Positions 44,648 through 52,511 of a stretch of 64,000 nucleotides of DNA are shown here, piece after piece; position 1 is the stretch's first letter; each line of letters opens with the position of its first letter. Below the pieces are notes generated by a model. The model was given only the letters and a program-made list of their open reading frames with translations. It did no database searches and was not told the DNA's origin. The position numbers were made by a program, and so were the translations under genes. The DNA comes from Dyella sp. 2HG41-7. GTDB taxonomy: Bacteria; Pseudomonadota; Gammaproteobacteria; Xanthomonadales; Rhodanobacteraceae. The stretch is from the NCBI RefSeq assembly GCF_021390675.1, contig NZ_JAJEJV010000004.1:1612001-1676000 (forward strand). The letters are read 5' to 3'.

Positions 44648-47600
44648 ATGAGTTCCCCCGCCAAGCACGTCCCTGCCACCGCTGCGCAGGCCGAAACCAC
44701 TCCGCTGCGTTTCGTCACCGCCGCCAGCCTGTTCGACGGCCACGATGCAGCCATCAACATCATGCGTCGCATCATTCAGTCGCAGGGTGCGGAAGTCATT
44801 CACCTGGGCCACAACCGCTCGGTGGAAGACGTGGTTCGTGCTGCACTGCAAGAAGACGCCGACGCCATCGCGCTGTCCTCCTACCAGGGCGGCCACGTCG
44901 AGTACTTCAAGTACATGGTGGACATGCTGAAAGAGAAGGGCGCCGCGCACGTTCGCGTGTTCGGCGGCGGCGGCGGCACCATCACGCCGGAAGAAATCCG
45001 CGAGCTGCAAGCCTACGGCGTGGAGCGCATCTACCACCCCAACGACGGCATGAAGCTCGGCCTCGCCGAGATGATCGAAGACGTCATGCACCGCGCCGGC
45101 AACGCCGCCGCCAAGCGTGAGCAGAACGACGACGTCGTCCCCGGCATCATCAGCATCGATGACGAAATCAGCATCGGCCACATGCTGTCCGCCATCGAAG
45201 AAGGCAAAGTCAGCGACACCGAACTCGCGCGCCTGCGCAAAGAGTGGTCGCTCGCCGGCAAACATACCCCCGTGCTCGGCATGACCGGCACCGGCGGCGC
45301 CGGCAAATCCTCCGTGGTGGATGAATTGCTGCTGCGCTTCCTGCACGCCTTCCCGCAGATGCGCATCGCCGTGCTCGCCGTCGATCCCACGCGTCGCCGC
45401 AGCGGCGGCGCCTTGCTCGGCGACCGCATTCGTATGAACGCGCTGCGCAGCCATCGCGTCTACATGCGCTCCATGGCCACGCGTCGTCAAAACGCCGCCA
45501 CCAACGAAGTGCTGCACGACTGCATCAACTTCCTCAAAGCGCAGCCGTATGACTTGGTGATCGTAGAAACCGCCGGCATCGGCCAAAGCGATTCGGAAAT
45601 CGTCGACCTCGTCGACTTCCCCGTCTACGTAATGACCAGCGACTACGGCGCCGCCAGCCAGCTCGAAAAAATCGACATGATCGATTTCGCCGAACTCGTG
45701 GTGCTCAACAAATTCGACAAACGTGGCGCAGAAGACGCGCTGCGCGACGTGCGCAAACAATGGAAGCGCAACCGCACCGCCTTCACCCTCAAAGACGAAG
45801 ACGTGCCGGTGTATCCCACCATCGCCAGCCAGTTCAACGATCCAGGCGTCACTTGGATGTTCACCAACCTGTGCCGCCTGCTGCAAAACAAGCTGGCCGC
45901 CAAAGGCAGCGATCACACCGCCGAGTCGCCCAACTGCGATTTCAAGCCGAGCCTCGACACCTCCCTCAAAGAACCCCGCGCCACCGTGCTCATCCCCGGC
46001 GCGCGCGTGCGCTACCTCGCCGAAATCGCCGAACAAGGCCGCGGCATCAACAGCGAAATCGAACGCGAAGCCGAATTCGCCAGCAAAGCGCAGCACTACT
46101 ACGAATCGCTGAAAGAACTCGGCGACGACAAACTCCCGCAAACGCTGGAGCGCTACGACCACGAAGCCACGCACGACGCCAACGCCGATCGCACGCTGCT
46201 CGTACTGCGCCAACGCTACAACGCAGCATTGCGCGAACTCAGCCACGAAGCCCTGCACCTGCTGCGCGACTGGCCCAAGCTGTACAAATCCGTCACCGAA
46301 GACGTCAACGAATACAAAGTGCGCGACAAAGTGATCCGCGTCGAGAACTACCGCGAATCGCTCAGCCACCAAAAAATTCCGAAAGTCGCGCCGCCCAAAA
46401 CCAAAGACTGGGGCGACCAGCTGCGCTTCCTCATGCGCGAAAACCTACCAGGCCATTACCCGTACACCGGCGGCGTGTATCCCTATCGCCGCACCGGGGA
46501 AGATCCCACCCGCATGTTCGCGGGCGAGGGCACGCCCGAGCGCACCAACCGCCGCTTCCATTATCTAAGCCAGGGCGGCGCCGCCACGCGCCTCTCCACC
46601 GCGTTCGACTCCGTCACCCTGTACGGTGAAGACCCCGCGCCGCGCCCGGATATCTACGGCAAAATCGGCAACTCCGGCGTCAACGTCGCCACGCTCGACG
46701 ATATGAAGAAGCTGTACTCCGGCTTCGATCTCAGCGCGCCCACCAGTTCCGTCTCCATGACCATCAACGGCCCCGCGCCGATCATCCTCGCGATGTTTAT
46801 GAACACCGCGATCGATCAGAACGTGGAGAAATACCTCAAGGCCGACGACGCCCGCTGGGCCGCCGCGCAAAAGCGTATCGACGAACTCTTCGCCGGCAAA
46901 AAGCGCCCCACGTACTCCGGCGATCTGCCCAAAGGCAACGAAGGTCTTGGCCTAAGTTTGCTCGGCGTTTCCGGCGATCAACTCGTCGACGCGCAAACCT
47001 ACGCACGCATTAAAGAAGAAACCCTGCAAACCGTGCGCGGCACCGTGCAGGCCGACATCCTGAAAGAAGACCAGGCGCAAAACACCTGCATCTTCAGCAC
47101 CGAATTCGCGCTGCGCATGATGGGCGACATCCAGCAATACTTTGTCGACCACAAAGTGCGCAACTTCTATTCGGTATCCATTTCCGGTTATCACATCGCC
47201 GAAGCCGGCGCCAACCCGATCAGCCAGCTCGCCTTTACCCTCAGCAACGGTTTCACCATCGTTGAGTACTACCTCGCGCGCGGCATGAACATCGACGACT
47301 TCGCGCCGAATCTAAGCTTCTTCTTCTCCAACGGCATGGACCCGGAGTACACCGTTATCGGTCGCGTCGCCCGCCGCATCTGGGCGCGCGCCATGCGTGA
47401 GCGTTACGGCGCCAGCGCACGCAGTCAGATGATGAAGTACCACATCCAAACCTCAGGCCGTTCCCTGCACGCGCAAGAAATCCAGTTCAACGACATCCGC
47501 ACCACGCTGCAAGCGTTGTATGCGCTGTTCGACAACTGCAACAGCCTGCACACCAACGCCTACGACGAAGCCATCACCACGCCCACCGAAGAAAGCGTGC

Positions 47601-48139
47601 GCCGCGCCGTAGCCATCCAGATGATCATCAACAAAGAACTCGGCCTCAACTTCAACGAAAACCCCTGGCAAGGCAGCCACATCGTCGATGCGCTAACGGA
47701 TATCGTGGAAGAGGCCGTCTATAAAGAATTCGAGGCCATCAGCGAACGCGGCGGCGTGCTCGGCGCCATGGACACCATGTACCAGCGCGGCAAGATTCAA
47801 GAAGAATCCATGTACTACGAGCAAAAGAAACACGACGGCAGTTTGCCACTCATCGGCGTCAACACCTTCCTCCCCAAAGACCACGGCGGCGAAATCGCCA
47901 CCGAAATCGAACTCATTCGTTCGACGGAAGAAGAGAAAGGTCAGCAGATCGACAACGTGCAGGCGTATGGTAAAGCACGTAACTCGCTGGCGCCGGAAAG
48001 CCTCAAAACGCTACAGAACACAGCGCGCGAGCGGAAGAACGTGTTTGAGCAGTTGATGGAGGCGGTGAAGTACAACTCGTTGGGGCAGATTTCCCATGCG
48101 CTTTATGATGTAGGTGGGGAATATCGTCGAAATATGTAA
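44648..48139 (+). CDS. icmF: Fused acyl-CoA mutase IcmF (cobalamin-dependent isobutyryl/isovaleryl-CoA mutase)
   Basis: A 1163-residue fusion. An N-terminal B12-binding domain has [15 protein letters not shown] near residue 30. A MeaI/ArgK-like GTPase chaperone carries the P-loop GTGGAGKSS near residue 215 and [16 protein letters not shown]-terminal catalytic mutase barrel follows ([53 protein letters not shown]). It interconverts isobutyryl-CoA and n-butyryl-CoA, and in some bacteria isovaleryl-CoA and pivalyl-CoA, with adenosylcobalamin. The gene fits the branched-chain acyl-CoA theme of the window. CGGAG lies just before the ATG. A terminator follows. Confidence 0.94.
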
Positions 48140-48330: not shown

Positions 48331-48807
48331 TTAAGGTGACCGCCGAGCTTCAAATGTTCGAAGTAGAACAGATGCAAATGAAAGATAATCCAGGCACAGA
48401 TCAATAGAGTCCGTTCTTATGTCATGGCCCCGCGGGTTGCGTATTGCCGACATCGATCCAGCAAAGACGTACCTGAATCCCATTTGTTCGTCTTTGTCAC
48501 TTGTTGTCAAAAGGTCATTCAATTTGATTTTCGGGTTGGCTTCATTGAATGCAGCCATCATGAGCTTATAGCCGCTGTCCTGTATGCCGGATACGTCTTT
48601 GACCTTGTTGTCCAAAAGCTTGAATGCTTCGAAAGTCGCCTGCGAATAATGGCCATCGTCAAATAGCTTGAGTGACACCGTCGCGATATCTGGATGGACA
48701 TTGCGTTCATCGAATGGATGGGCATCGCGAGATGATTGCGGCGTGCGAAAGCCTATATGCCTTGCACTCCGCGCGATGCGTTCAAATGATGAGAATGGAT
48801 TAGTCAT
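48331..48807 (-). CDS. TIGR02391-family protein (Ymh-like)
   Basis: A 158-residue protein. The C-terminal two thirds (HPDIATVSLKLFDDGHYSQA, AFKLLDNKVKDVSGIQDSGY, FAGSMSAIRNPRGHD, YLSFASVLLRTFE) match the TIGR02391 pattern. These proteins are small, helical and often found in mobile or defence-type loci, with distant similarity to abortive-infection-like nucleotide-binding folds. The N-terminal 30 residues are basic and less conserved. The start overlaps the DUF5343 gene by eight bases, so the two are coupled. Base composition is visibly more AT-rich than the flanking core. Function unknown. Confidence 0.76.
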   Translation of the reverse strand: MTNPFSSFERIARSARHIGFRTPQSSRDAHPFDERNVHPDIATVSLKLFDDGHYSQATFEAFKLLDNKVKDVSGIQDSGYKLMMAAFNEANPKIKLNDLLTTSDKDEQMGFRYVFAGSMSAIRNPRGHDIRTDSIDLCLDYLSFASVLLRTFEARRSP

Positions 48808-49465
48808 TTAGTAAATTGGCTTTCATGCTTTTGAAGATGTTGTCGTATGTCTCTGCGCTGGCTTCCGCCGGTAGATTGATTTCAATACGTACCGTAAGCG
48901 CCATGTCTTTTTTGTTAGTATTTTCCTGCGTCGTGGTATTCACTACGGTAGGTTTGCTGGCCGATTTGGTTGTTTTTGCGTTTGACGATTTGGTAGGCGT
49001 CTTTGAAGTCTTGTTGTTTTTAGTACCTGGCGCATTGGCTTGTTCATAACCCGCAAGTCCGCGAAATGCTTGAAACACGCCTGCTTGACGAGTGCCGATC
49101 ACGTCGCTGGTTTTATCCGTGCTTCGGAAATATCCGATGAGTTCATCCTTGGATATGGTCCATGCGTCGTTGCCACGTAAATCGAACAGATCTTTATATG
49201 CTTCTCGAACCAGGCCTTGAAACGCGCTTTTGAATGCTTCTTCATCATGTGTAGTCAATACACTATGACCCCGATCAGTCCTCTTGCTCTCTTCATCTAT
49301 AATTCCAATGAATTGAAGAGCATTGATTACGTAGCTTTCATTTTGGGGTGCAATGCCTAGCTTTTTCACTGTGTCTGAGTTTACGACCGCAGGGAAATTT
49401 TTTCTGAGAAAGCCAATCATTTGTGTAATGTTGCCGGCGCCAGAGATATACGGATGCGTTGCCAT
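48800..49465 (-). CDS. DUF5343-domain protein
   Basis: A 221-residue protein. Residues 1-140 form a DUF5343-type helical/winged-helix region (MATHPYISGAGNITQMIGFL, FKSAFQGLVREAYKDLFDLR, VIGTRQAGVFQAFRGLAGY). A lysine/serine/threonine-rich linker of about 50 residues follows, then a compact C-terminal module (ALTVRIEINLPAEASAETYD). That module resembles the C-terminus of the next gene upstream at 49525. GAGGAA lies seven bases before the ATG. Middle gene of the accessory three-gene set. Function unknown; DNA binding is plausible from the fold type but not shown. Confidence 0.76.
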   Translation of the reverse strand: MATHPYISGAGNITQMIGFLRKNFPAVVNSDTVKKLGIAPQNESYVINALQFIGIIDEESKRTDRGHSVLTTHDEEAFKSAFQGLVREAYKDLFDLRGNDAWTISKDELIGYFRSTDKTSDVIGTRQAGVFQAFRGLAGYEQANAPGTKNNKTSKTPTKSSNAKTTKSASKPTVVNTTTQENTNKKDMALTVRIEINLPAEASAETYDNIFKSMKANLLND

Positions 49466-49524
49466 AAATTCCTCGAAAATTATGAGCCTGAGATGATCTG
49501 TGCGATGCCGGCTATGGCTAATTT

Positions 49525-50094
49525 TTAAGTGACCGAAGGGTTAGCCATTGCCTGAACTACGCTTGCTATTTTCTTCGCTTCTGAGGCAGTCAGGTCGAAT
49601 GGCAAGCCTTGGATGTAGATCGTAAGGTCCGCTCTTATCGGAATTGGCAGGATGCTACTAGCCATCGGGCCCGCAACTGCCGAAATCGACTGGCGAGGTG
49701 TGTCGGGGGTGAGGTCTTCTGAAATATTTTTCGGAGAGTTCGCAGTCGTTTTTGGAGATGCTGATGATTTCCGCTCACGTGACTGCACGTTTGGTTTGAA
49801 CGCCAGTGGATTTTTTACGTAGCTCGCAAAGTCATCCAATGCGGATCTAACCCTACTTTTGTAGGTAACTAAGCTATCCGGCGTGTATCCCTTGCCTTGC
49901 AAATGTCCAAATCGTTGCATTACCGCGTCGAGGTCAATTGACGTTACGTCGCGAGATTCTCGCTCATCCAAAATTCCAAGGACTTTACCCACCGCTGCCT
50001 TGCGGGCGCGAGCAGTTGCTGGCGCCATAAGGCCTTTTTGCGCCACATATTGCAGAAAATCGAGCAGCGCCTCACGAGACTTTTGTCCGTCCAT
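49525..50094 (-). CDS. Recombinase core-binding (SAM-like) domain protein without catalytic domain
   Basis: A 189-residue protein. The N-terminal 95 residues look like the helical core-binding domain of tyrosine recombinases (SREALLDFLQYVAQKGLMAP, TSIDLDAVMQRFGHLQGKGY, YKSRVRSALDDFASYV). No catalytic domain with R-H-R-Y residues follows. Instead a serine/proline-rich linker leads to a C-terminal module (RADLTIYIQGLPFDLTASEA). It is probably a DNA-binding or adaptor protein rather than an integrase, or a shortened relic. First gene of the minus-strand set, 59 bp before the DUF5343 gene. Confidence 0.72.
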   Translation of the reverse strand: MDGQKSREALLDFLQYVAQKGLMAPATARARKAAVGKVLGILDERESRDVTSIDLDAVMQRFGHLQGKGYTPDSLVTYKSRVRSALDDFASYVKNPLAFKPNVQSRERKSSASPKTTANSPKNISEDLTPDTPRQSISAVAGPMASSILPIPIRADLTIYIQGLPFDLTASEAKKIASVVQAMANPSVT

Positions 50095-50445
50095 ATGTAT
50101 CTCAATATGTTAAGATGGACAAAAATATACGTGTCCAGTGTCTATCCTGCAAGTGACGACAGATTGAGCTGAAGGTTAGGTTGGGTGGAGGCGCGAAAAA
50201 AAGGGTGCAAAAAAAGGGCAAAAAAGCGGTGGGGGGAAAAAGACAGTACTCTTTCTCGCGCTTTTTTCGCGTCAAACGGCGATCTGGGGGAGGCGGGCGG
50301 AGGTAGTTGCAAAAAAAGGCGGGCGAAAAAAGGGGCAAGAGTGTTTTTAGAGTAGAGAAAGTGCTCTGAATTCCTATCGATTTAGTCGCCCCGGTCCGTG
50401 CAGACTTTGAGCGCGTCTATTACCAGTCAGAGAGAGCTGCCCGCA
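50095..50445. other. AT/GC-skewed repeat-bearing intergenic region
   Basis: 350 bp with alternating poly-A and G-rich tracts and no coding sequence. It contains copy A (50268-50309) of a degenerate 44-bp repeat found again at 52039 and 52166. It should hold the promoter of the three-gene set (minus). A plus-strand promoter for 50446 may also be here. Confidence 0.6.
50268..50309 (+). repeat. 44-bp degenerate repeat, copy A
   Basis: Begins CGCGTCAAACGGCGATCTGG and ends GGCGGAGGTAGTTG. Compare copies at 52039-52080 and 52166-52210, in the same orientation. A core of about CAAGCGGCGATCTG, then a G-rich tract and GGAGRTAGTTG, is shared. Confidence 0.75.
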
Positions 50446-50799: not shown

Positions 50800-50841
50800 G
50801 AGAGGAGAGCGCTACGGTCCTCTTTGTTCTTTCTAGTTCAC

Positions 50842-50950
50842 CTAATTCGCCCGAACCAAGCCCGAGATTTGCGTAACATGCGCAATGCTCTCCAACACAT
50901 CATTAAGTTGGAAGCTCAAATCAGCAAACAGTTGCCCCACCAGTGATCGG
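50842..50950 (-). pseudogene. Truncated duplicate of the small gene at 52233
   Basis: Reads HRSLVGQLFADLSFQLNDVL and onward to ISGLVRAN, then a stop. This is the last 36 or so codons of the 92-codon gene at 52233-52511, with several substitutions and without the N-terminal half. No start codon or ribosome site precedes it, and the sequence upstream is a GGGGTCAGA-type palindrome. It is a 3' fragment left by duplication or recombination. Confidence 0.85.
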
Positions 50951-50964
50951 TGAAGAGTAAAAAA

Positions 50965-51007
50965 GGGGTCAGAACACTTTTTCATCGACGAAAAATGCTC
51001 TGATCCT
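50965..51007. repeat. Palindromic repeat, family C (GGGGTCAGA type), degenerate
   Basis: GGGGTCAGAACACTTTTTC faces GAAAAATGCTCTGATCC, an imperfect inverted repeat. It belongs to the family with the copies at 52104 and 62974. It lies directly beside the truncated gene copy at 50842. Confidence 0.75.
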
Positions 51008-51049: not shown

Positions 51050-51859
51050 GTGACATCACTTCTGGCTTGGCTCTCGGTTGATAGCTCTGGTCCATCCGCT
51101 TTGTATTTCGCGAGCGATAGCCGTATTACCTGGGCTAACTCCGAGGTTTGGAACTCATGTAAAAAGGTGTTTGCTTCTCAGAAAGAACCTGAGATATTCG
51201 CATTCTATGGAGACGTTTTATTTCCATGCCTTGCCCTATCTCAAGTGGTTTCGCTAATTGATGCAGGCGTTTTGTATGCTGGTCATGAGCAGCCAGATGA
51301 AAGGTTCGCAAAAGTCGCTGACTTAGTCGAGCGTCTTTATGATGATTTTCCTGTGGCTCAGAAGTCTGCGTTTTCAATTGTTCATGGCATTAGATCTGGC
51401 TTGCGAAAAGCAAGCCATTTCCATGTCAGCCAGCTTGAGTGCTCTGATGGAGGTAAATTCGATCGGAAATCACTCGCGCTTCCAACGTCCTCTAGCGCAA
51501 TAGCGGCGTTTGGTTCGGGAGCTGTCTACGTCCGGAAGGTCGCAGATCGTTGGAAGAAGTCGGACGTTGGCGGTACGAGTAGATCTATATTTTCCGGCTT
51601 CGTTGAAGCCGTTGTAGAAAGCGAGGACCCGTTTACTGGGGGTATGCCTCAATTTGCGGTCGTTGAACGAAGTTCATGCGGCCAATACATTGGATTTGTC
51701 TCTGGTGGGCATAGGTTTGTTTCTGGAGTTAAAACTCAGACAGAACTAAACCTTATGCAGATCAAGTGGCGCAACGAAGCTTTCGAAATGTGCGACCCAC
51801 TTACAGGGAACTTATTACATGGCGCGCAACGGCAGCCGAGGCCAAAAAATGTTGGTTGA
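51050..51859 (+). CDS. Predicted proteasome-like Ntn hydrolase
   Basis: A 269-residue protein. The N-terminus MTSLLAWLSVDSSGPSALYF is followed by ASDSRITW and KKVFASQ, then FYGDVLFP. If the initiator methionine is removed, Thr-1 leads; the ASDSR aspartate and the lysine before VFAS then fall where proteasome beta subunits and HslV keep D17 and K33, and GDV where the oxyanion glycine lies. This is the order of an Ntn-hydrolase active site. The C-terminal half (GGMPQFAVVERSSCGQYIGF) is unlike proteasome subunits. The GTG start follows AAGGA. It is alone, AT-rich, with no obvious partner. Confidence 0.68.
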   Translation: MTSLLAWLSVDSSGPSALYFASDSRITWANSEVWNSCKKVFASQKEPEIFAFYGDVLFPCLALSQVVSLIDAGVLYAGHEQPDERFAKVADLVERLYDDFPVAQKSAFSIVHGIRSGLRKASHFHVSQLECSDGGKFDRKSLALPTSSSAIAAFGSGAVYVRKVADRWKKSDVGGTSRSIFSGFVEAVVESEDPFTGGMPQFAVVERSSCGQYIGFVSGGHRFVSGVKTQTELNLMQIKWRNEAFEMCDPLTGNLLHGAQRQPRPKNVG

Positions 51860-51986: not shown

Positions 51987-52038
51987 AAAACGACTTATAG
52001 AAAAAAAAGGCAAGAAAAAAAAGGGGTCAGAACCCTTT

Positions 52039-52080
52039 CTCGCTTCAAGCGGCGGTCTGAGGAAGGGGCGGAGATAGTTG
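52039..52080 (+). repeat. 44-bp degenerate repeat, copy B
   Basis: CTCGCTTCAAGCGGCGGTCTG followed by a G-rich tract and GGAGATAGTTG. Same orientation as copies A (50268) and C (52166). It is preceded by GGGGTCAGAACCC, a half-palindrome of family C. Confidence 0.75.
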
Positions 52081-52103
52081 AGCGCAGCGGCAAAACAGGA
52101 GCA

Positions 52104-52156
52104 AAACAGGGGTCAGAGTGCACTTTCAAGAGTTAAGTGCACTCTGACCCCTGTTT
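52104..52156. repeat. Palindromic repeat, family C, perfect 22-bp stem
   Basis: The arms 52104-52125 and 52135-52156 are exactly complementary over 22 bases (AAACAGGGGTCAGAGTGCAC start). It is the best-preserved member of the GGGGTCAGAGTGC family in the window, wedged between copies B and C of the 44-bp repeat. Confidence 0.9.
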
Positions 52157-52165
52157 AGTTCTTTT

Positions 52166-52232: not shown

Positions 52233-52511
52233 TTAGTTCACCGAATTGGCCTGCACCAAACCCGAAATTTGCGTGACATGCGCAATGCTCTCCAACACAT
52301 CGTTAAGCTGAAAACCCAAATCAGCAAACATCTGTCCCACCAGTGATCGGCGAATATGCAATATGGCGGTGTCATCGCGAAGCGACGATGCGGTGCCTGC
52401 CAATTGCGCCATCAACATCACTTTGTCGCGCACTTCGCACAACTGATCGTAATAGTCCGCGGGCACCACATAGGACCCTGCGTAGGGGCCGTCTTCGAGC
52501 ACATTTTTCAT
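52233..52511 (-). CDS. Small cytoplasmic protein, XAC0095-like
   Basis: A 92-residue protein: MKNVLEDGPYAGSYVVPADY, then an amphipathic helical body (LCEVRDKVMLMAQLAGTASS, DDTAILHIRRSLVGQMFADL) and DVLESIAHVTQIS near the end. The SYVVPADYYDQL stretch recalls small XAC0095-like proteins of Xanthomonadaceae; that match is from memory and moderate. There is no signal peptide or membrane helix. Its 5' leader is strongly structured (52535-52631), and a truncated duplicate of its 3' half lies at 50842. Confidence 0.68.
   Translation of the reverse strand: MKNVLEDGPYAGSYVVPADYYDQLCEVRDKVMLMAQLAGTASSLRDDTAILHIRRSLVGQMFADLGFQLNDVLESIAHVTQISGLVQANSVN

Follow-up and report, generated by a model that had tools for sequence, protein, structure and literature searches.

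A conserved DUF5343-HEPN gene pair at a Dyella locus behind icmF, a predicted Ymh-effector variant of the candidate defence system PDC-M34

The conserved unit at an AT-rich locus of Dyella sp. 2HG41-7 is a pair of overlapping genes, B and C, which encode a DUF5343 protein and a probable HEPN ribonuclease of the Hypoth_Ymh/TIGR02391 family; the gene in front of them, A, is accessory. Our favoured reading, held with some reserve, is that the two genes suffice for a HEPN-ribonuclease system of toxin-antitoxin or abortive-infection type, in which the tail of B would restrain C until infection, whereupon RNA would be cleaved and growth arrested. Below, the window denotes the whole stretch of DNA that was analyzed (64,000 nucleotides).

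Layout and composition of the locus

The genes considered here are located in the window as follows (genes A to C by ORF coordinates).

Gene A: 50094..49525, minus strand, accessory protein of 189 aa
Gene B: 49465..48800, minus strand, DUF5343 protein of 221 aa
Gene C: 48807..48331, minus strand, Hypoth_Ymh/TIGR02391 protein of 158 aa
Overlap of the B stop and the C start: 48800..48807, minus strand, 8 bp, reading ATGACTAA
icmF-type mutase gene: 44648..48139, plus strand, named by inspection, the protein itself being unscanned

These coordinates bear out the arrangement given in a preliminary description, namely three minus-strand genes with a 59-bp gap between A and B and an 8-bp overlap between B and C. 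The overlap suggests coupled translation of B and C. As had also been described, positions 48331-50094 are poorer in GC than their flanks (0.473 vs 0.584 in the window and 0.603 in icmF), and only 4 of 312 stretches of equal length have a GC content as low. The three genes are set between the icmF-type gene and an AT-rich, repeat-bearing stretch. C is convergent with icmF and ends 191 bp beyond the icmF stop codon (48139). Between the two ends, the sequence shows a GC hairpin followed by a run of T, which agrees with the reported location past an icmF terminator; our pattern scan did not list it.

Repeats are indeed present in this region, which had been called repeat-laden, but the longer ones lie upstream of A (50.2-52.4 kb) and none of these falls inside the A-B-C module. 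A 121-bp direct repeat (87%) is found at 50834-50954 and 52234-52354; it duplicates the 3' end of a small gene (52233-52511) and flanks on both sides a gene starting at 51050. The latter (51050-51859, plus strand) is AT-rich, encodes 269 aa, is possibly more cargo of the same icmF site and had no Pfam, PADLOC or NCBIfam match at E<=1. Repeated stretches of the AAAAAAGGGGTCAGA type and a 27-nt palindrome, REP-like in look, occupy 50195-50350, 50957-50983 and 52017-52163.

Genes B and C form the conserved unit

Patterns taken from three B proteins of the Ymh type were used to scan genome contigs, and the 41 loci obtained are a sample of B-C loci rather than a census of DUF5343. According to the record titles, they come from Alpha-, Beta-, Gamma- and Deltaproteobacteria, Nitrospina/Nitrospira, Bacteroidetes, Acidobacteria, Planctomycetota and Chloroflexi, with many MAGs among them. 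C is found directly downstream of B in 40/41 loci; at the single exception (L050) an orphan B reads through and is followed by no HEPN gene. B is split in three loci (L033, L051 and L052) and carries a stop in L048. The two genes overlap in 40 of the 41 counted pairs (window included), most commonly by 8 bp (22 pairs), 11 bp (9) or 17 bp (6), as read from mechanical ORF start codons, with a start later than that of the ORF list in L017.

A was beside B in none of the 41 loci (the sequence upstream of B extends for 1.5 kb or more in 37 of them), and no upstream ORF recurring among B-C loci was seen by eye. Another gene, X, comes first upstream of B-C in one genome only (Dyella lipolytica, L031, also seen as L011). 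The proposal that A, B and C act as one unit is thus not upheld: adjacency of the homologs, suggested as a check on it, holds for B and C and fails for A, and B-C occurs alone in integron-cassette-like form. As to a second suggested check, whether such homologs sit in defence islands, most neighbors of B-C at the 41 loci look like housekeeping genes by eye, R-M, TIR or recombinase genes occur near some pairs (10 proteins picked by eye, which gives no rate), and no enrichment in defence islands can be claimed. TIR-domain genes adjoin DUF5343-HEPN pairs at L028:4981-5907 (by Pfam) and L127:1-839 (by inspection).

The pair also occurs in mobile settings. In L027, the neighbor of B-C is a divergent integrase in which Phage_integrase and Phage_int_SAM_4 domains are present. 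One border of the pair, GTTATACCTAC, precedes B; the other, GTAGGTATAAC, spans the C stop and is followed by GTTAGGC, and the fold is strong (z -3.4). This pair of borders was read by eye, is repeated in L028 and has its first half alone in L021. L042 presents a perfect GTTAGGTAGCA / TGCTACCTAAC pair, then GTTAGGT, with a weak fold (z -1.6), and its integrase, of the same domain make-up, lies ~4 kb upstream and points towards B, an unusual layout for an integron. L023 is a further cassette candidate (z -3.6). The search for attC-type sites covered B-C homologs other than the window copy. A strict attC consensus behind C matched 2 of 20 loci (L023 and L042) vs ~0.5 expected (2.3% of shuffles of the L027 stretch), and a reverse-complement test across 35 loci returned L023, L027, L042 (perfect) and L045 vs ~1.3 expected (3.7% of shuffles). 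The L027 and L045 matches of the latter test look like chance, and L027 was kept for the borders read by eye. We read these B-C copies as integron cassettes, the integron type of the integrases being assigned by inspection, and two copies with this appearance argue for the self-sufficiency of B-C. Integrons carry defence genes. Two papers deal with integrons and defence (PMC12444791, PMC12409362). Finally, a gene resembling a tyrosine recombinase precedes B-C on a viral contig (L054; gene names by inspection).

C is a probable HEPN ribonuclease

In agreement with its earlier family assignment, C matches Pfam PF09509 (Hypoth_Ymh; E 4.6e-29, 101.1 bits vs a cut-off of 25) and TIGR02391 (E 9e-20, 71 bits vs 39.45). 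It contains the motif R123-N-P-R-G-H128 (RX4H), and RNPR[GA]H is present in 39/39 aligned C rows, equal to 38/38 distinct sequences with L012 and L036 identical, in an alignment that leaves out L026, L028, L031, L050 and L052. Passages of a 2013 survey place the Ymh family in the HEPN superfamily with the motif marked as conserved, and describe Ymh domains in R-M neighborhoods and fused to abortive-infection domains (PMC3710099). The statement that both families are uncharacterised therefore stands for DUF5343, on which we found no literature, and not for TIGR02391/Ymh. Given the membership in the HEPN superfamily and the RX4H motif in all 38 distinct sequences, C is probably a ribonuclease effector.

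Among PADLOC profiles, C is matched by PD-Lambda-3_B (E 5.9e-15) and Aga_HEPN (1.9e-13), in both cases through the C-terminal part of the profile, and not by PDC-M34B at E<=1. By tblastn, C has distant relatives in plasmids (32 records) and phages (2 records), each below 60% identity. Profile searches of PDB with A, B and C gave no credible homolog by sequence.

B combines an N-domain, a linker and a conserved tail

The sole Pfam match of B at E<=1 is DUF5343 (PF17278, E 7.9e-12), the family already named for it, and PADLOC PDC-M34A matches residues 3-218 (E 5.7e-24). Three parts can be distinguished.

B residues ~5-143: N-domain
B residues ~144-188: linker
B residues ~189-221: conserved C-terminal tail

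Mean pairwise identity among 32 sequences is 0.53 in the N-domain, 0.16 in the linker and 0.76 in the last 33 residues, so that the tail is the best-conserved part. This alignment leaves out L026 (B identical to L025), L011 and L012, as well as L033, L034 and L047-L053, in which B is split, truncated, partial or unchecked. The linker of the window protein contains 7% hydrophobic residues. As read from the sequence, the N-domain looks like a winged helix (wHTH), and the tail is apparently a beta strand plus a helix. No match to the window B was found by tblastn in plasmids and phages. A pattern scan of viral contigs with B likewise returned none, yet L054, found through C, holds B, which means that such a scan can miss.

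The HEPN partner changes behind DUF5343

We searched 249 genomes of the phylum with PF17278 (7 with a match) and 321 genomes of the class with a B-tail profile (12 with a match, 7 of them at E<=1.6e-9). Window aside, the strong matches of both searches amount to 11 genomes, and in 10 of these a HEPN-fold gene of another family is located next to the DUF5343 or tail gene. The next gene is HEPN_Swt1 in 7/11 (L111, L112, L113, L124, L126, L127 and L128; E 1.2e-11 to 1.6e-17), with nearly identical pairs in L127 and L128 (184/187), and DUF4145-like in 3/11 (L114, L115 and L125; E 3e-4 to 3e-3, below the Pfam cut-off). The remaining genome (L116) has a DUF5343 remnant and no HEPN gene. All seven tail matches at E<=1.6e-9 among the 321 class genomes are DUF5343 genes with a HEPN-fold gene behind them. 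Of the five weaker ones (E 1e-4 to 9e-3), two were inspected (L129 and L130), and both look false. DUF5343 was recognized by Pfam in L111, L113, L114, L115, L124 and L127, by family search in L112 and by an N-domain profile in L125 and L126; the same profile found L128, itself one of its rows. B is in two frames in L114, and the L126 ORF stops before the tail.

A tail HMM from Ymh-type pairs recovers Swt1-type tails (E 1.6e-7 to 1.9e-5) and ranks DUF4145-type tails (0.024 and 0.053) above all 308 decoys. The RX4-6H motif is present in 7/7 Swt1 partners and 0/3 DUF4145-like partners, so that an RNase of this kind cannot be the partner in every case. No Swt1-type DUF5343 was found in plasmids and phages and no DUF4145-type DUF5343 in plasmids. 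The L111 and L113 pairs match both PDC-M34A and PDC-M34B, and the second gene of L112 matches PDC-M34B (3e-36 to 3e-41 for the three Swt1 partners). PDC-M34 thus corresponds to DUF5343 plus Swt1-HEPN and, on the strength of these profile matches, the window pair is a Ymh-effector variant of this candidate.

Gene A is an accessory protein of phage type

A is an accessory protein, small, phage-type and DNA-binding-like, and it matches phrog_2602 (E 3.8e-22). It had been described as having a recombinase-type core-binding domain but no catalytic domain. The second part holds, with no Phage_integrase match at E<=1 in its 189 aa, but the core-binding domain is sub-threshold (N-domain vs Phage_int_SAM_1, E 0.042, 14.5 bits vs a cut-off of 22.3; 2/9 A-family members at E<=1). 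Homologs of A in Salmonella phage Oslo, E. coli phage phi-8 and a 5.5-kb Salmonella plasmid are located shortly downstream of a cI-type repressor gene on the same strand, and in Yersinia phage YP3 the two genes are ~2.5 kb apart. In viral contigs, a cI-like gene is 0.2-0.6 kb upstream in 18/24 A loci (just 4 distinct A proteins there). A-family genes shortly downstream of cI-like genes were seen in lambdoid phages or prophages at L055-L062, L064-L073, L002, L005 and L006, a spot that is typical of lysogenic-conversion genes. A viral scan with an alignment of window-type A found none.

The tail of A is shared by further small proteins whose N-domains differ (L137, L138, L142, L145 and L149), and the one in L138 overlaps a helicase-like gene. 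By inspection, A tails end small proteins with HTH-looking N-domains at L146:3841-4326 and L149:5851-6300; of these, one adjoins an integron-like integrase (L146) and one is near a protein with an RNNAAH motif.

An obligate three-gene system with A as a DNA-binding sensor strikes us as improbable. It would fit the shared strand and 59-bp gap, the position of gene X in the place of A in one genome (L011/L031) and a weak resemblance of the A and B tails: tail-only hhalign gave P 0.0017 but a probability of 15%, DUF5343 tails took the top 17 ranks of an A-tail profile search (best E 0.045), and the B-tail profile placed the A homolog L008 above all 308 decoys (E 0.21). Whole-length hhalign of A and B nevertheless gave a probability of 0.3%, and the shared C-terminal module was kept as suggestive only; at E<=0.01, a search of the window genome with the B-tail profile missed A. 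Moreover, the absence of A from the 41 B-C loci is mirrored around the A homologs, with B or C near none of the 24 viral loci by search and none of the further loci viewed by eye.

Proposed mechanism

We infer the RNase activity of C, its inhibition by B, a phage trigger and a role of A. C would be a latent RNase with RX4H as its active site. The N-domain of B, presumed winged-helix-like, probably binds operator DNA or a phage-derived ligand, and a flexible linker would join it to the tail, which would dock on the HEPN protein and keep C inactive. Upon infection, B would be displaced, degraded or re-shaped, and C, now active, would cut RNA and stop growth before phage release. A may have a tuning role in expression or sensing. 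That the tail serves for docking is argued mainly from the change of HEPN family behind a tail that stays constant.

Sequence cannot tell an inhibitor from an activator, and B could conversely be a sensor, with C inert alone, the N-domain recognizing phage DNA or protein and the tail assembling an active C complex. The conserved N-domain (0.53) is in keeping with this alternative, as is a tail that recurs while effector families change, as for an adaptor. We nonetheless rate it as rather unlikely. Type II antitoxins are small, are encoded first, overlap the effector gene that follows and have a linker-plus-tail layout, and B resembles them in gene order, size, overlap and architecture; the partner gene comes first and overlaps the effector gene in 40/41 pairs. 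A precedent for a sensor is Tha, a prophage HEPN system reported to be triggered by phage tail proteins (PMC11087260).

A broader and decidedly tentative reading would make DUF5343 with its tail a general controller of HEPN-fold effectors. One tail would dock three HEPN families (Ymh, Swt1 and DUF4145-like), cells and integrons would swap the effector and keep the controller, and small, DNA-binding-like proteins of the A or X kind with a related tail may plug in, resulting in a modular, cassette-borne RNA-targeting defence.

Relation to known systems

The window pair and PDC-M34 share the family of the first gene (PDC-M34A at 5.7e-24 for the window B), a related tail, and a closely spaced HEPN-fold gene in second place. 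They differ in the second gene, which is a Ymh-type HEPN gene with no PDC-M34B match at E<=1 in the window, and in the extra gene A. PD-Lambda-3_B and Aga_HEPN resemble C in their C-terminal parts, but the profiles are longer (270 and 382 positions) and have another N-terminal part. A further parallel is offered by hyperpromiscuous antitoxins of the Panacea-domain family. In these networks, one antitoxin-like family is combined with several effector families (PMC10440598), whereas the partners seen here are all HEPN-fold and the partner family is DUF5343. Within the Ymh family, C keeps the PF09509 match and the RX4H motif, but passages of PMC3710099 list Ymh domains standing alone or fused with pMORC, AbiJ-NTD and AbiTii domains, and no DUF5343 partner. 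HEPN-MNT (type VII) toxin-antitoxin systems (PMC7641770, PMC11586414) are two-gene units with a HEPN RNase effector, but their antitoxin is a nucleotidyltransferase and the window B has no such Pfam match.

We found no literature on DUF5343, PDC-M34, HEPN_Swt1 or 'Swt1-like HEPN' in a search that covered neither bioRxiv preprints nor most subscription papers. Systems of this kind are known, and the Ymh variant and the tail common to three HEPN families appear undescribed within the literature searched. The label 'undescribed' is accordingly apt for the absence of any paper on DUF5343 and too broad for the pairing, DUF5343 plus Swt1-HEPN already being a PADLOC candidate. The proposed reading brings two families whose function was unknown under a single mechanism that can be tested, and explains why these TIGR02391 and DUF5343 genes travel together. 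With no match of C to the second component, PADLOC PDC-M34, whose system rules we have not seen, would probably miss the window variant.

A variable site behind icmF

The C-terminal part of the icmF-type gene was matched in 16/16 genomes of the genus (the window's own included; G657 in part). Similarity ends approximately at the icmF stop codon in the 12 relatives compared, which makes the icmF 3' end the left border of a variable site. None of the 12 relatives harbors A, B or C within 13-14 kb downstream of icmF. The Pfam and PADLOC assignments of the cargo at this site are as follows.

L099: NACHT-NCH1 protein
L100: FRG/PDC-S15
L101: protein without an assigned family
L102: AAA protein with a weak HSDR_N match
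L106: DRT8 and its PDDEXK partner
L108: HamB-like DEAD helicase
L109: AbiLi/AbiLii
L110: HerA-type ATPase

Strong PADLOC matches (E<1e-10) were found in 5/8 loci scanned, each to a different system, although some are to broad families (helicase, HerA). The scan comprised 10 proteins from 8/12 relatives, chosen by size and low GC and leaving out L103, L104, L105 and L107, and offers support but no rate. As a control, the largest ORF 8-14.5 kb from icmF gave a PADLOC match in 2/10 cases (10 of the 12 relatives), and this control is not clean. Judging from these matches, the site behind icmF is likely a defence-cargo hotspot in the genus. Of the full-length pairs among the 41, those from Bradyrhizobium are nearest to the window pair (65-68% identity for B and 73-74% for C), closer than the pair of a genus-mate (~50% and ~46%). 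This order of relatedness points to horizontal acquisition, and the window copy was probably acquired in this way into the defence-cargo site.

The defence role proposed in the preliminary description thus keeps its variable locus, the recognized defence genes that several relatives in the genus carry there and a HEPN-type effector, and loses the unity of three genes. A simple toxin-antitoxin or addiction module, devoid of any specific anti-phage role, is an alternative that shares with our model the restraint of C by B, and the two are not exclusive. We consider it possible but doubtful. The type II-like layout, the integron-cassette-like settings, the recombinase-like gene adjacent on a viral contig and the housekeeping-looking neighbors are all compatible with such a module, but the window copy occupies a site with recognized defence genes in several relatives, and the Swt1-type sister pair is a PADLOC defence candidate. 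The site behind icmF in this genus is a place to look for more defence systems. A gene family of ~107 aa, MKEKAPGAWLTLNTSYYPAP-like, recurs near variable sites in L099, L102, L109, L110 and L120.
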